A DNA stretch of 28,144 nt from a virus, in the IMG/VR virus record IMGVR_UViG_3300028030_000048, positions 1-28,144 of that record. One strand, given 5' to 3'. The notes under the pieces are model-generated. The model was not told where the DNA came from. It did no database searches and worked only from the letters and a program-made list of their open reading frames with translations. How positions within the stretch are numbered: position 1 is the first letter of the stretch; every line of letters starts with the position of its first letter. The position numbers and the translations under genes are program-made. Below are positions 4,456 to 21,612 of the stretch, one piece after another.

Positions 4456-5150
4456 TCACCTTCTAGGGCGCAAAGGCGCTATGAGCGCGGACAGGCGGGT
4501 CTTGAACGCCGCAGCTGCGTCTTTGCGGAACATAGACGACGCCGCCATTTGTAGCAAGCCGAGTTTCCCGGCCAGATCCGAGGACCCCCGAGAATGACAA
4601 ATGGCCGCCTCGTCCAGCATATACCCTATTGGTAACTCTCCGGGGGCGCAATACCCTTCGGAAACGAGGCGGGACCGTTCTTCCCGGAGCCCCCATCGCC
4701 ACTCGTTGAACGTGAGCCCCCCGCTGCCGGGGACGCCTCTGGCATCCGGGCCATGAGGGCTTGAAGCGTCCCCACCATGCGCTCCACGTCAACCTCGCTG
4801 GCGAACGTAAGATCCGCAACCTCCACGGCCACCGCGAGCAGCGCTTCGGCGGGCCACTTCCGGATTTCATCAACCATATCCGGTTCATCCGCCGCCAGCG
4901 CCACGGCATCCGCAATGAGATCCGGGAACTGCGCAATGGCGGTCTGAATGACCCCCACCACCGCATCTCCGGAGGCCGATTCAGGGGCCTTGACGACCTT
5001 CTCCATGACCGCATCATATACCGCCCGAATCGCAGCCTCATGCCGCGTGAGCAGTCGCGATACGTCTTCGTATGACAGCCCTCGAACTTCGACTGTGCCG
5101 CCGAGCATCGACAACACACGCTTCGGGATAACAATTCCGTTGATAGCCAT
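4456..5150 (-). CDS. Tail assembly chaperone G-T fusion made by -1 frameshift
   Basis: This is the long form of the tail chaperone. Ribosomes translating G slip back one base at a GGGGGGC heptamer (4716-4722) at codons 144-145. They then read 86 more codons, beginning LTFNEWRWGLREERSRLVSE and ending at the TGA at 4456-4458. The predicted fusion is 231 residues. The extension has no start codon or Shine-Dalgarno of its own, lies exactly between G and the tape measure gene, and stops 4 nt before the tape measure ATG. In lambda, gpG and gpG-T coat the tape measure during tail tube assembly, and the T part recruits the tube protein. Position, frame relation and slippery sequence all fit. Another frame is also open here (down to 4463), but it lacks the LTFNEWRWGLREE signature that such T domains often carry. 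Confidence 0.85.
4626..5150 (-). CDS. Tail assembly chaperone, short form (lambda G-like)
   Basis: The protein has 174 residues and starts MAINGIVIPKRVLSMLGGTV, preceded by GAGGG 7 nt upstream. It is largely helical and acidic (EDVSRLLTRHEAAIRAVYDAV, then a run rich in Asp and Glu around 80-125). It ends in a Ser/Gly-rich tail that is simply the region containing the slippery site. In lambda-type phages the G protein binds the tape measure protein and keeps it soluble. The assignment rests on position between the tail tube and tape measure genes, size, and the frameshift signal, rather than on a recognisable catalytic motif. Confidence 0.85.
   Translation of the reverse strand: MAINGIVIPKRVLSMLGGTVEVRGLSYEDVSRLLTRHEAAIRAVYDAVMEKVVKAPESASGDAVVGVIQTAIAQFPDLIADAVALAADEPDMVDEIRKWPAEALLAVAVEVADLTFASEVDVERMVGTLQALMARMPEASPAAGGSRSTSGDGGSGKNGPASFPKGIAPPESYQ
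4716..4722 (-). promoter_or_regulatory. Programmed -1 ribosomal frameshift slippery heptamer G-GGG-GGC
   Basis: In the G frame the codons are GCG GGG GGC. The heptamer G GGG GGC fits the X-XXY-YYZ rule, so both tRNAs can re-pair after a one-base backward slip and continue with CTC ACG TTC AAC GAG TGG. The site is 31 codons before the G stop, and the minus-one frame then stays open to the tape measure gene. I did not find an obvious strong pseudoknot downstream by eye. Confidence 0.8.
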
Positions 5151-18612: not shown

Positions 18613-21612
18613 TCAATCCTTCGTGAACACCGGCGACAAAAACCCGGCGGCATCAAGCGGGAAGCCCCGCGCCCATTTAGGCGCGTCGATCATGCACTCG
18701 CGGAGAACCTTCAATTCCTCTTCCGCCCGATCTTCGGGCGATTGCACAACAATCTGATCATGCACATGCAGCCGGATGTCGAGCCCGCGCCGATGCGCAT
18801 TCAACATCCCGTGGAGCAGCAGATCAAGGGCTACGGCCTGGGTGATGTTTTCCAGAAGCTTCCCGCCGTGAGTCTTGGTCCGCGCCCAATGCGCCCGGTC
18901 GCTCATGCCCATGTAAGTGAAGGTCGGCCGCCGCTCGCCCCACGGCGTCGTCTTCATCTGAATGAGCGGCTTGTAGTAGTGCAGATACCGCCCGGAAGGC
19001 AGTGAGATACGCAAGAACGGCCCTTCAAGATCGACCGTGAACCAGCGTAGCCGCGCAGGCCGCCCCGTCCGGATAACCTGCTTTACCGCCTGAACAATCC
19101 GCGCCCAGAACTTCACGACATCCCGATACGAATGCCGAAAAGTCTGCACGGAAAGCGCACTCTCTTCTGGCGTCAACTTGATGCCCATGTTCCACGCATA
19201 CCCGAGCAGCCCCGTAGCTTCGAGCTCCCCCGTCTGCTCATTCTCTATGACCTGCCCTTCGCCAAGCCCATAGCCGCAGTTGTGCGCTATCAGGGGTCCA
19301 CACGCCCCCATGACGACAAACCGTTGCGTTTCCTCAACGTCAAGAATGTCGTAAGTATGGGCCTCTGCAATTGATCTGTTCCGCAATAATTTCTTCGGCG
19401 GATTTACCCGAACGAATCTTCCTCGCCACTGTGCTTGAATCCCGATATTGAGGCGCGAAACGGCGATGAAACTCTGCCGCACACCACGCCCGGCCCAAAT
19501 GCAGAATTTCTCTATTCGTCTCCATGTTCTGGCACTGCGCCTGCCGAGACACGAGGCGAAGGTTCCCCTTCTCGTAATGCCCTGCGTTATCCGCCCGATC
19601 AATTTCCCTCGTATCCCCGTCAATAAACCCGAGATCGCAAACAACATGCCGAACGAAGTCACTGACATTACGGAACCGGCACCTGATCCCCCGAAGCCCA
19701 TATCTGCGATGCCCTCGCACCGGATCACATCGCGTCCGGATAGCGTAAAACCTATTGGCCAAAACTTCCCATGTCGAATCAGAACACCCAAAAAACTCCC
19801 GCTGTTCATACCCGGAGCATTCCCGGCACGCGACGCGCCGGTCAAGCCTCGACCGCCTGAGCCTCCTCCGGTGCCCTGACGGGCACTCAACGACATACAT
19901 CTGACCGGCACCAATCTGGACCCCAAGAAACTCGACAACCGTCCATGCGCCAACACAAGCGCCTGGCGCATGTGGTTTTTTCGCATATTGTCCGCGCGCA
20001 GCCATTTGCCCTCTCCAACCAGCACTTTATGGTCCGGCGTCATCATCACCCCGGCGGCCTCAATGACCTTTTTTCGCCCCCTATACGCCGCCCCTCCGCA
20101 GCGCCTGAACTTGGCCCCGTCATAAACTACATCCGACGCCTTCACACGTTCAATCGGAACCCATCCACGCCCCGTCAAGACAGGCGTTCCGGCGGCAATG
20201 CACCCGAGGACACCCGGCTTACTCACCTTGCGGAGTCCCCCCTTCCCTGCGCGATACTCCGCAACCACATCTTCATACGTCCGATGGAACATCCGGGAAC
20301 CAAAATCCAGATAGGGATCGCGCCCCTGCTCGAAGACCCGGAGGATCTGCGAATCCCCCGTAATCCACCCGATCCCCCTATTTTCAATAGCCGACAGATC
20401 ACAGTCCGAGAAAACATACCCCTCTGGCGCCTGCACCACGGGACGGATGGCGGATTTAAGCGCTGTAATCGGGTCCCCGAACGTCGCTCGCAGGCTTTCA
20501 ACATCCAATATCTCAACCGCTCTGGCGAGCGCCGGCATGGCCCTCTCATACTCCCCGGCAGGGCGGGGAAGATTTTGCGGCTGAAAAATTCTGCCGGCAA
20601 AACGCCCGGTGCGCGCCGCGCCAAAGAACTGAAACGTGTTCCGAAGCCTGCCGTCTTCCGCCGTTGCGCGTTCCAAAGCGTAATACTTCTTCGGCGATGT
20701 CTGTGAAATTACCGCCCGGCGCTCCAAAGCAGCAACCAGTGCGCGGCTCCGGGCATATGCCTCGGGCGATACCCCATCCGCCCCCATGGCTTCACGCGCC
20801 GCCGCCAAGCCCCGGGCCACATGCCCCTTGCGCAAGTCGTCAAACACATACCCGTGATGCTTCGCCCACGGAAGGAATTGCGCCCCGCTGTTAGGATTGG
20901 CCAGCCCGGTTATTTCAATCAATTCAGCGCGCAGCCGGGCCACTTCATCTTCATAAATCCAAATCGCGTTCTGGACCATCTTTGTGTTGACTGGCATCCC
21001 GCGCTGATTGATCACCTGATCCAGATGCCAAAACCGCCACCATTTCATTGACGGCATAAACCGTTTCAAGCGGCGGCGAACCTCTTGCTGCGCCACCACG
21101 TCCTGCCGGTTATATTCCCGAAACTCCGTCCATTCGTCTGGGGAAGTCTCCGGGGTTTCACGAGTCCATGGCTTGTTTTTTGTAGGCTTTCTCGGCTTGC
21201 AGAAGCGCCGCAGCAGCGCCTTGCCGCGCGACAGTTTCTTCTTGTCCTCGCCCATCCCGAGAATAGGGCCGAGCTTTTCCAGCGACCCCGGAAACGAACA
21301 GGAATGCGCGAGGATCATCGTGTCACGCCAACGGGAGATCGGCACCTTGATGCGCTCCACATTCCGCAAGACCTGCCGCTCAAAAGCTGCGTTGTGCGCC
21401 CACAGCAGACGGTCCTGCTCCATAAGAGCTTCCATGAAGTCTTGCGGAAAATACGGAATGCCCTCAAACCGGTCCCACTGCTTTACCGGCCCGTTGTCTA
21501 TCGAATAGGCGAGCAGCACAACCTCGCAAGACGGATGCCGCGTATAAACATCCGCCCCGACCTTCCGCAGGTCGAGCTCGCAGAATGTTTCAAAGTCAAA
21601 ATCCAGAATCAT
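18613..21612 (-). CDS. Family A DNA polymerase, interrupted by an intein
   Basis: The 999-residue precursor becomes a 691-residue polymerase once the intein (471-778) is removed. The N-terminal 3'-5' exonuclease shows DFDFETF (D6, E8), HNAAFERQ (73-80) and YNRQD (167-171). Polymerase motif A is SDCDLSAIENR with D405. Motif B (O-helix) is RKVSKPGVLG split from CGYGLGEG, with R461 and K465. Motif C is LHVHDQIVV (949-957). The usual H-D-E of motif C is H-D-Q here, an oddity worth noting. It copies the phage genome alongside the DUF2815 protein and the primase-helicase. The Shine-Dalgarno is weak (GGCGGG), and a hairpin lies just upstream. Confidence 0.94.
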   Translation of the reverse strand: MILDFDFETFCELDLRKVGADVYTRHPSCEVVLLAYSIDNGPVKQWDRFEGIPYFPQDFMEALMEQDRLLWAHNAAFERQVLRNVERIKVPISRWRDTMILAHSCSFPGSLEKLGPILGMGEDKKKLSRGKALLRRFCKPRKPTKNKPWTRETPETSPDEWTEFREYNRQDVVAQQEVRRRLKRFMPSMKWWRFWHLDQVINQRGMPVNTKMVQNAIWIYEDEVARLRAELIEITGLANPNSGAQFLPWAKHHGYVFDDLRKGHVARGLAAAREAMGADGVSPEAYARSRALVAALERRAVISQTSPKKYYALERATAEDGRLRNTFQFFGAARTGRFAGRIFQPQNLPRPAGEYERAMPALARAVEILDVESLRATFGDPITALKSAIRPVVQAPEGYVFSDCDLSAIENRGIGWITGDSQILRVFEQGRDPYLDFGSRMFHRTYEDVVAEYRAGKGGLRKVSKPGVLGCIAAGTPVLTGRGWVPIERVKASDVVYDGAKFRRCGGAAYRGRKKVIEAAGVMMTPDHKVLVGEGKWLRADNMRKNHMRQALVLAHGRLSSFLGSRLVPVRCMSLSARQGTGGGSGGRGLTGASRAGNAPGMNSGSFLGVLIRHGKFWPIGFTLSGRDVIRCEGIADMGFGGSGAGSVMSVTSFGMLFAISGLLTGIRGKLIGRITQGITRRGTFASCLGRRSARTWRRIEKFCIWAGRGVRQSFIAVSRLNIGIQAQWRGRFVRVNPPKKLLRNRSIAEAHTYDILDVEETQRFVVMGACGPLIAHNCGYGLGEGQVIENEQTGELEATGLLGYAWNMGIKLTPEESALSVQTFRHSYRDVVKFWARIVQAVKQVIRTGRPARLRWFTVDLEGPFLRISLPSGRYLHYYKPLIQMKTTPWGERRPTFTYMGMSDRAHWARTKTHGGKLLENITQAVALDLLLHGMLNAHRRGLDIRLHVHDQIVVQSPEDRAEEELKVLRECMIDAPKWARGFPLDAAGFLSPVFTKD
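19340..20005 (-). CDS. HNH homing endonuclease nested out of frame inside the intein
   Basis: The protein has 221 residues. The ATG sits within the intein codon for Trp of block B-GEGKW, with GGAG 7 nt upstream. The N-terminal part has WTVVEFLGVQ and a Cys/His zinc-binding set (ECPSGH ... CRECSGY, about 41-66). The central HNH region is RRYGLRGIRCRF (about 100-111), VCDLGFIDGDTREIDRADNA (122-141) and GHYEKGNLRLVSRQAQCQN (142-160). The C-terminal part, AAEFHRRFAPQYRDSSTVAR then RSGKSAEEIIAEQ, looks like the helix-turn-helix DNA-binding end of this family. Wobble bases look less GC-rich than in neighbours, so it is probably a later arrival. It likely cuts intein-free polymerase alleles and drives homing. 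Confidence 0.88.
   Translation of the reverse strand: MAARGQYAKKPHAPGACVGAWTVVEFLGVQIGAGQMYVVECPSGHRRRLRRSRLDRRVACRECSGYEQREFFGCSDSTWEVLANRFYAIRTRCDPVRGHRRYGLRGIRCRFRNVSDFVRHVVCDLGFIDGDTREIDRADNAGHYEKGNLRLVSRQAQCQNMETNREILHLGRAWCAAEFHRRFAPQYRDSSTVARKIRSGKSAEEIIAEQINCRGPYLRHS
20009..20016 (-). promoter_or_regulatory. Shine-Dalgarno of the nested HNH gene
   Basis: GGAGAGGG stands 3 nt before the ATG at 20005, counting 7 nt from its GGAG core. It encodes part of V-G-E-G-K in the intein block B frame, so the same bases serve the intein and the internal start. It fixes the start of the endonuclease and argues against a frameshift-made fusion. Confidence 0.75.

Follow-up and report, generated by a model that had tools for sequence, protein, structure and literature searches.

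Canonical homing inteins carry a LAGLIDADG or HNH endonuclease domain in frame. The element described here shares with them a Hint splicing domain, the placing of a putative endonuclease between blocks B and F, and apparent mobility, but differs in that the endonuclease lies outside the intein polypeptide, in another reading frame and with its own start. Fractured genes and split inteins with a free-standing endonuclease, reportedly described by Dassa et al. in 2009, likewise have the endonuclease as a separate protein within the intein locus; in those systems, however, the host gene is split and its product matures by trans-splicing, whereas the host frame of the present locus is continuous.

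Two further systems come closer in layout. The ShiLan domain is a hidden, mobile, out-of-frame HNH within an insertion of a phage methylase (PMC11855218); as at the locus studied here, the host frame stays open and the HNH stop codon is found at the very end of the insertion, whilst the differences are that ShiLan has no splicing domain and that its HNH starts from a GTG without a ribosome-binding site (PMC11855218). The other is the P45/P46 gene pair of Hamiltonella phage APSE-1, in which a polymerase (P45) contains an intein and the HNH protein P46 (positions 3431-3853 of L255) is annotated wholly inside P45 in another frame. By both its intein and its HNH profile, APSE-1 belongs to the family described below, differing from our locus in its polymerase insertion site (GGKS/CENICQAAARD), in its +1 offset and in an annotated P46 start that is downstream of the likely one; no discussion of the P45/P46 overlap was found in the literature searched. 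In the same literature an out-of-frame HNH was described only in the ShiLan paper (PMC11855218) and in a genome note that repeats the term (PMC12613952). The statement in an earlier note on this DNA that no such family is known is only partly borne out, given APSE-1 P46 within P45, the HNH ORF annotated between two polymerase pieces in Salmonella phage SS3e, and ShiLan, which lacks an intein. The ShiLan authors cite Gosselin 2025 (a preprint on actinobacteriophage inteins of non-canonical architecture) and Gorbalenya 1998 with regard to overlapping frames (PMC11855218), so a prior description is possible.

The DNA analysed, here called the window, is a virus record of 28,144 bases. Its minus strand encodes, at 18613..21612, a family A (phage PolA-type) DNA polymerase precursor of 999 aa (phrog_17 DNA polymerase, 2.4e-110; PF00476, 5.8e-10), and this ORF is stop-free from 21612 to 18613, straight through an intein of 308 aa at 19279..20202 that extends from Cys1 to His307-Asn308, with boundaries set by profile scan. 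The earlier note had placed a complete class 1 intein at exactly these coordinates, and the features that define the class are present: Cys1, the TxxH of block B (TPDH), a terminal His-Asn and a Cys at +1; block F reads TYDILDVEE. The intein interrupts the motif-B region of the polymerase, with GVLG before it and CGYG, beginning with the +1 Cys, after it. Inteinless relatives read GVLGCGYMLG at this point (e.g. L012), and the site is empty in the related polymerases L012 and L007.

Three parts of the intein, all minus-strand, can be told apart. Residues 1-75 (19978..20202) form the N-terminal splicing half, with blocks A and B and TPDH at 20040-20029, and residues 279-308 (19279..19368) form the C-terminal half, with blocks F and G; both halves are supported by the AF2 model, by invariant residues and by observed/expected (O/E) substitution ratios. 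Between them is an in-frame linker (about residues 98-261; 19420..19911), predicted to be disordered, which is the shadow of the HNH gene. In the AF2 model the block-mean pLDDT is 92-98 for residues 1-70 and 94-96 for the C-terminal half, and the linker of ~165 residues is mostly below 50. An alignment of 40 inteins shows C1, T55, H58 and D285 to be invariant and H307 and N308 nearly so, and has no conserved columns in the linker. When a profile built from 40 of the insert's relatives was run against the PDB, the only matches at E<=0.1 were inteins or an intein-like domain, the best being PI-MtuI (2.6e-5); a phmmer search of the PDB with a single mini-intein gave no match, although the family profile did. 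The Pfam Intein_splicing model scores above its cut-off in the relative L057, and Foldseek places the model of the window intein closest to inteins and Hint domains (top probability 1.00). The insert is thus confirmed as a class 1-type intein, with a Hint fold that is confidently predicted. The precursor would be expected to undergo protein splicing, and the purifying selection on the splicing halves reported below supports this indirectly. HNH-bearing group I introns are established residents of phage polymerase genes (e.g. PMC3428280), and the insert might have been an intron of this kind, bearing an HNH ORF and excised from the RNA. No sign of one was seen, because no part of the window matched Rfam; moreover the insert leaves the host frame open, its splicing blocks show protein-level conservation and it has the Hint fold, which together make an intron very improbable.

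Inside the intein, the same strand encodes an HNH endonuclease ORF of 221 aa at 19340..20005, in the +2 frame relative to the polymerase (phrog_374, 1.6e-16; also phrog_3377, 6e-12). The sequence GGAGAGG at 20010..20016 (minus strand), located by a sequence scan within the N-terminal intein coding region, is the likely ribosome-binding site, its GGAG being 7 nt upstream of the ATG; the earlier note's overlapping HNH gene with a GGAG site of its own is accordingly borne out. The predicted protein has a zinc-ribbon-like N-terminus and an HNH-like core at about residues 82-177, and includes the signature stretch EIDRADNAGHYEKGNLR (residues 134-150; 19556..19606, minus strand), picked out by its conservation in 40 relatives, among which R137, Y144 and N148 are invariant and N140 nearly invariant. 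The core is of a variant type, DR...N...N, that lacks the canonical paired histidine. Although its AF2 model has a mean pLDDT of 87.5, Foldseek found no fold match for it in the PDB, no Pfam or NCBIfam model matches it, and comparison with PDB sequences gave weak matches only, among them a weak profile match to PacI (E 0.022). The name HNH rests for this reason on the PHROG matches and the conserved DR..N...Y...N motif, and the naming of the PHROG family suggests that the product is a nuclease.

The arrangement is not confined to the window. IMG/VR was scanned with intein and HNH alignments and, together with phage loci already collected, gave 186 HNH matches, 115 of which (repeat fetches included; viral contigs and named phages) lie out of frame within a host ORF that is open and has both halves of an intein, and 65 of which have no overlapping open frame. 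Bacterial genomes, as prophages, added 59 contigs with the layout, in two of which the HNH is found beyond a mini-intein in the same ORF, and 10 further named-phage records show it, including APSE-1, Shewanella SFCi1, Caulobacter KcrB, Gardnerella AB1 and Shigella EP23; a plasmid search gave no match. After dereplication, the 115 viral-contig and named-phage ORFs and the bacterial prophages come to 144 cases, and the out-of-frame HNH within an intein is a recurring family of about 140 distinct phage and prophage cases. Among the genes that host it are PolA polymerases, which are entered at several sites, SNF2 helicases and ResIII/DEAD helicases. Where a locus retrieved by its intein has no nested HNH, it mostly proves to be a mini-intein, and bacterial genomes yield mini-inteins as well. 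Those of L049, L053, L075, L077 and L028 have the same splicing domain at the same sites (in L049, L075 and L077 the site is the one common to Streptococcus-type members) and differ in being about 120-150 aa long without an HNH; they are likely to be losses or pre-invasion forms.

Several members depart from the simple pattern. One polymerase ORF (L159:2954-4960) carries two such inteins, with HNH offsets of +2 and +1; another ORF carries two +1 inteins (L107), and in L039 each of two ORFs has one. In L242 and L245 one site holds a mini-intein, and farther along the same open ORF there is an HNH out of frame, probably within a second intein. At L028:4944-5528 a free-standing HNH gene overlaps the end of the ORF carrying the HNH-less mini-intein, and a terminase-like ORF (L003:9767-12067) was seen by eye to contain an in-frame insert resembling an intein (ALGLDTRIPTPSGW...VVTHN). 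Across the family the HNH stop codon often falls within the last codons of the intein: it is at 19342-19340 in the window, is a TAG 11 or 14 nt before the intein end in 53 +1 members, and is a TAA in the His-Asn codons of eight +2 members.

One sceptical account is that an HNH gene lies in a mini-intein whose frame happens to be open, the two-frame reading not being under selection. For the window this would be acceptable: the probability that the intein frame is open over the HNH domain by chance is between ~0.03 (codon-usage null) and 0.17 (codon permutation), which leaves the window by itself short of significance; the significance comes from the family counts. When the HNH amino acids were held fixed and synonymous codons redrawn, the 144 dereplicated overlaps contained 0 host-frame stops against 1392 expected, a set chosen for open host frames, although retrieval by the intein still shows broken hosts to be rare; in the third frame of the same overlaps 1575 stops were observed against 1153 expected. 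A set of 96 clusters gave 0 host-frame stops against 847 expected. Among free-standing HNH relatives, none of 53 has either other frame open. These stop counts, with the purging of stop-creating substitutions from the host frame only that is described next, lead us to reject chance openness at the family level and to give it hardly any credence overall.

Substitutions were analysed in 11 independent close pairs from which near-copies had been removed. In the HNH frame the nonsynonymous O/E is 0.43 and that for stops 0.10; for the window and L002 as a pair, the HNH nonsynonymous value is 0.37. The N-terminal splicing half (0.37), the C-terminal half (0.44) and the exteins (0.39) are similarly constrained across the pairs. 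The raw nonsynonymous O/E of the linker, 1.26, is inflated by HNH third positions, and for that reason the linker was assessed again on HNH-silent changes, where its nonsynonymous O/E is 1.06 whilst 0.5 host-frame stops were observed and 17.4 expected (9.0 and 12.1, respectively, in the third frame). It follows that the linker sequence is free and need only be readable, which agrees with the earlier note's description of a motif-free shadow kept open. Constraint is therefore present in both frames, as had been anticipated, and is asymmetric, in that the amino acids of the HNH are under constraint whereas the intein-frame linker is held only to the exclusion of stop codons. This asymmetry fits an essential host frame and a dispensable HNH. 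In L027:4141-4908 there is a stop at 4651-4653 in the HNH frame and the polymerase/intein frame is still open, an apparent case of HNH decay with the host frame kept; mini-inteins, moreover, are scattered on the tree. The proposition that both frames must stay open is upheld for the window and by its about 140 relatives, refined by this asymmetry and by the occurrence of such HNH decay.

An HNH domain that was originally in frame could also have been shifted by a sequencing or assembly indel, or by decay, and this has some initial appeal in that canonical inteins have their endonuclease in frame and that indels in SS3e are able to join the two frames. Each case would, however, need two compensating indels, and the offset is conserved over deep clades, in independently sequenced isolates and in bacterial genomes. 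Offsets of +1 and +2 both occur, each stable over a deep clade, and the HNH tree and the intein tree each require only two changes of offset. Of about 158 loci retrieved by their intein none proved to be truly in frame, nor did any in the HNH-retrieved set; in-frame restoration by indel, which the earlier note had held up as contrary evidence, has no true instance among them. Two candidates were rejected: in SS3e an indel puts the N-terminal half in frame with the HNH, and in L241 the HNH is a separate downstream ORF. Displacement by indel or decay is on these grounds most implausible. Homologues with a broken polymerase frame, the other kind of contrary evidence named, are rare: SS3e (L014), L034 and two loci from bacterial genomes, L229 and L251, the last without an HNH. 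In SS3e, the annotation of which reads polymerase, HNH, polymerase, indels break the polymerase frame near the intein start and within the linker and are possibly old sequencing errors. In L034:3869-5505 the host frame is broken near the intein C-terminus, beside an ambiguous base; this could reflect misassembly or a stage on the way to a split intein.

The double-frame logic is the same as that of ShiLan, and it might be supposed that the insert is likewise an out-of-frame HNH insertion kept, unspliced, as a tolerated loop of the host protein; the TAA in the His-Asn codons of the eight +2 members also recalls the TAAC with which the ShiLan insertion ends (PMC11855218). Against this, the window insert has complete and constrained splicing blocks and a Hint fold, and its site is within the catalytic region of an essential enzyme. 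The ShiLan HNH frame matches the family HNH profile only marginally (E about 0.01-0.02), and no C-terminal intein half was detected in the ShiLan methylase. A tolerated, unspliced loop is thus a poor candidate, if a shade better than the accounts dismissed above.

How the HNH would be produced is suggested by the sequence upstream of its start. A Shine-Dalgarno match of at least 5 nt is present at the 5' ends of 78% of the nested HNH genes (144 members) and at 31% of matched controls, which supports initiation of the HNH separately from the polymerase; endonuclease dosage may then be independent of splicing. Production of the HNH as a fusion to the N-terminal part of the intein by programmed frameshifting, instead of internal initiation, is the least weak of the competing accounts, since some HNH frames are open for some way upstream of the likely start, and yet it is still unlikely, given this excess of Shine-Dalgarno matches and the fact that in the window a stop just 7 codons upstream of the HNH start closes the HNH frame.

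In most close pairs the intein is more similar than the exteins that flank it (90% against 74% for the window and L002; 96% against 72% for L184 and L187), L040 and L052 being a reverse pair with exteins more alike than the intein. This high intein identity, together with patchy occupancy, is what homing predicts and is indirect evidence, drawn from sequence comparison, that the intein is mobile. Taking the observations together, we consider it highly probable that the locus holds a mobile intein and, nested in it out of frame, a separate gene for its homing endonuclease. We propose that ribosomes read the polymerase mRNA through the entire intein, that the Hint halves associate with the disordered linker of about 165-180 residues looped out, and that self-splicing restores the catalytic motif-B region of the polymerase. 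The HNH protein would be made from the same mRNA in the other frame, by way of the ribosome-binding site in the N-terminal intein coding region, and would cut polymerase alleles that lack the intein, close to the insertion site, with the result that repair would copy the intein and the HNH together. The linker would have no function beyond staying stop-free, this being imposed by the essential host frame.

As to origin, self-contained HNH genes most likely invaded mini-inteins out of phase, giving the +1 and +2 offsets, and mini-inteins may have been regained by deletion of the HNH. On a broader reading, which we regard as probable with less assurance than that of the locus itself, these loci form a large unrecognised class of phage inteins that have their endonuclease only as an out-of-phase nested gene, that arose at least twice by invasion of mini-inteins by free-standing HNH genes, and in which the HNH is selected at the amino-acid level and the linker only against stops, two-frame reading being a general route of entry.

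Such nucleases are missed by annotation pipelines, most of the Jerseyvirus and Streptococcus phage records examined annotating just an intein-containing or plain DNA polymerase. The family provides about 140 naturally occurring overlaps, roughly 350-660 nt long, with ordinary protein selection on one frame and no demand on the other beyond avoiding stops, a clean natural case for overlapping-gene theory, and a linker that tolerates essentially free sequence change may help intein engineering. The nuclease still has the look of a self-contained gene inserted out of phase, which bears on how homing endonucleases entered inteins, and the recurrence of the layout suggests how nuclease genes get into them.
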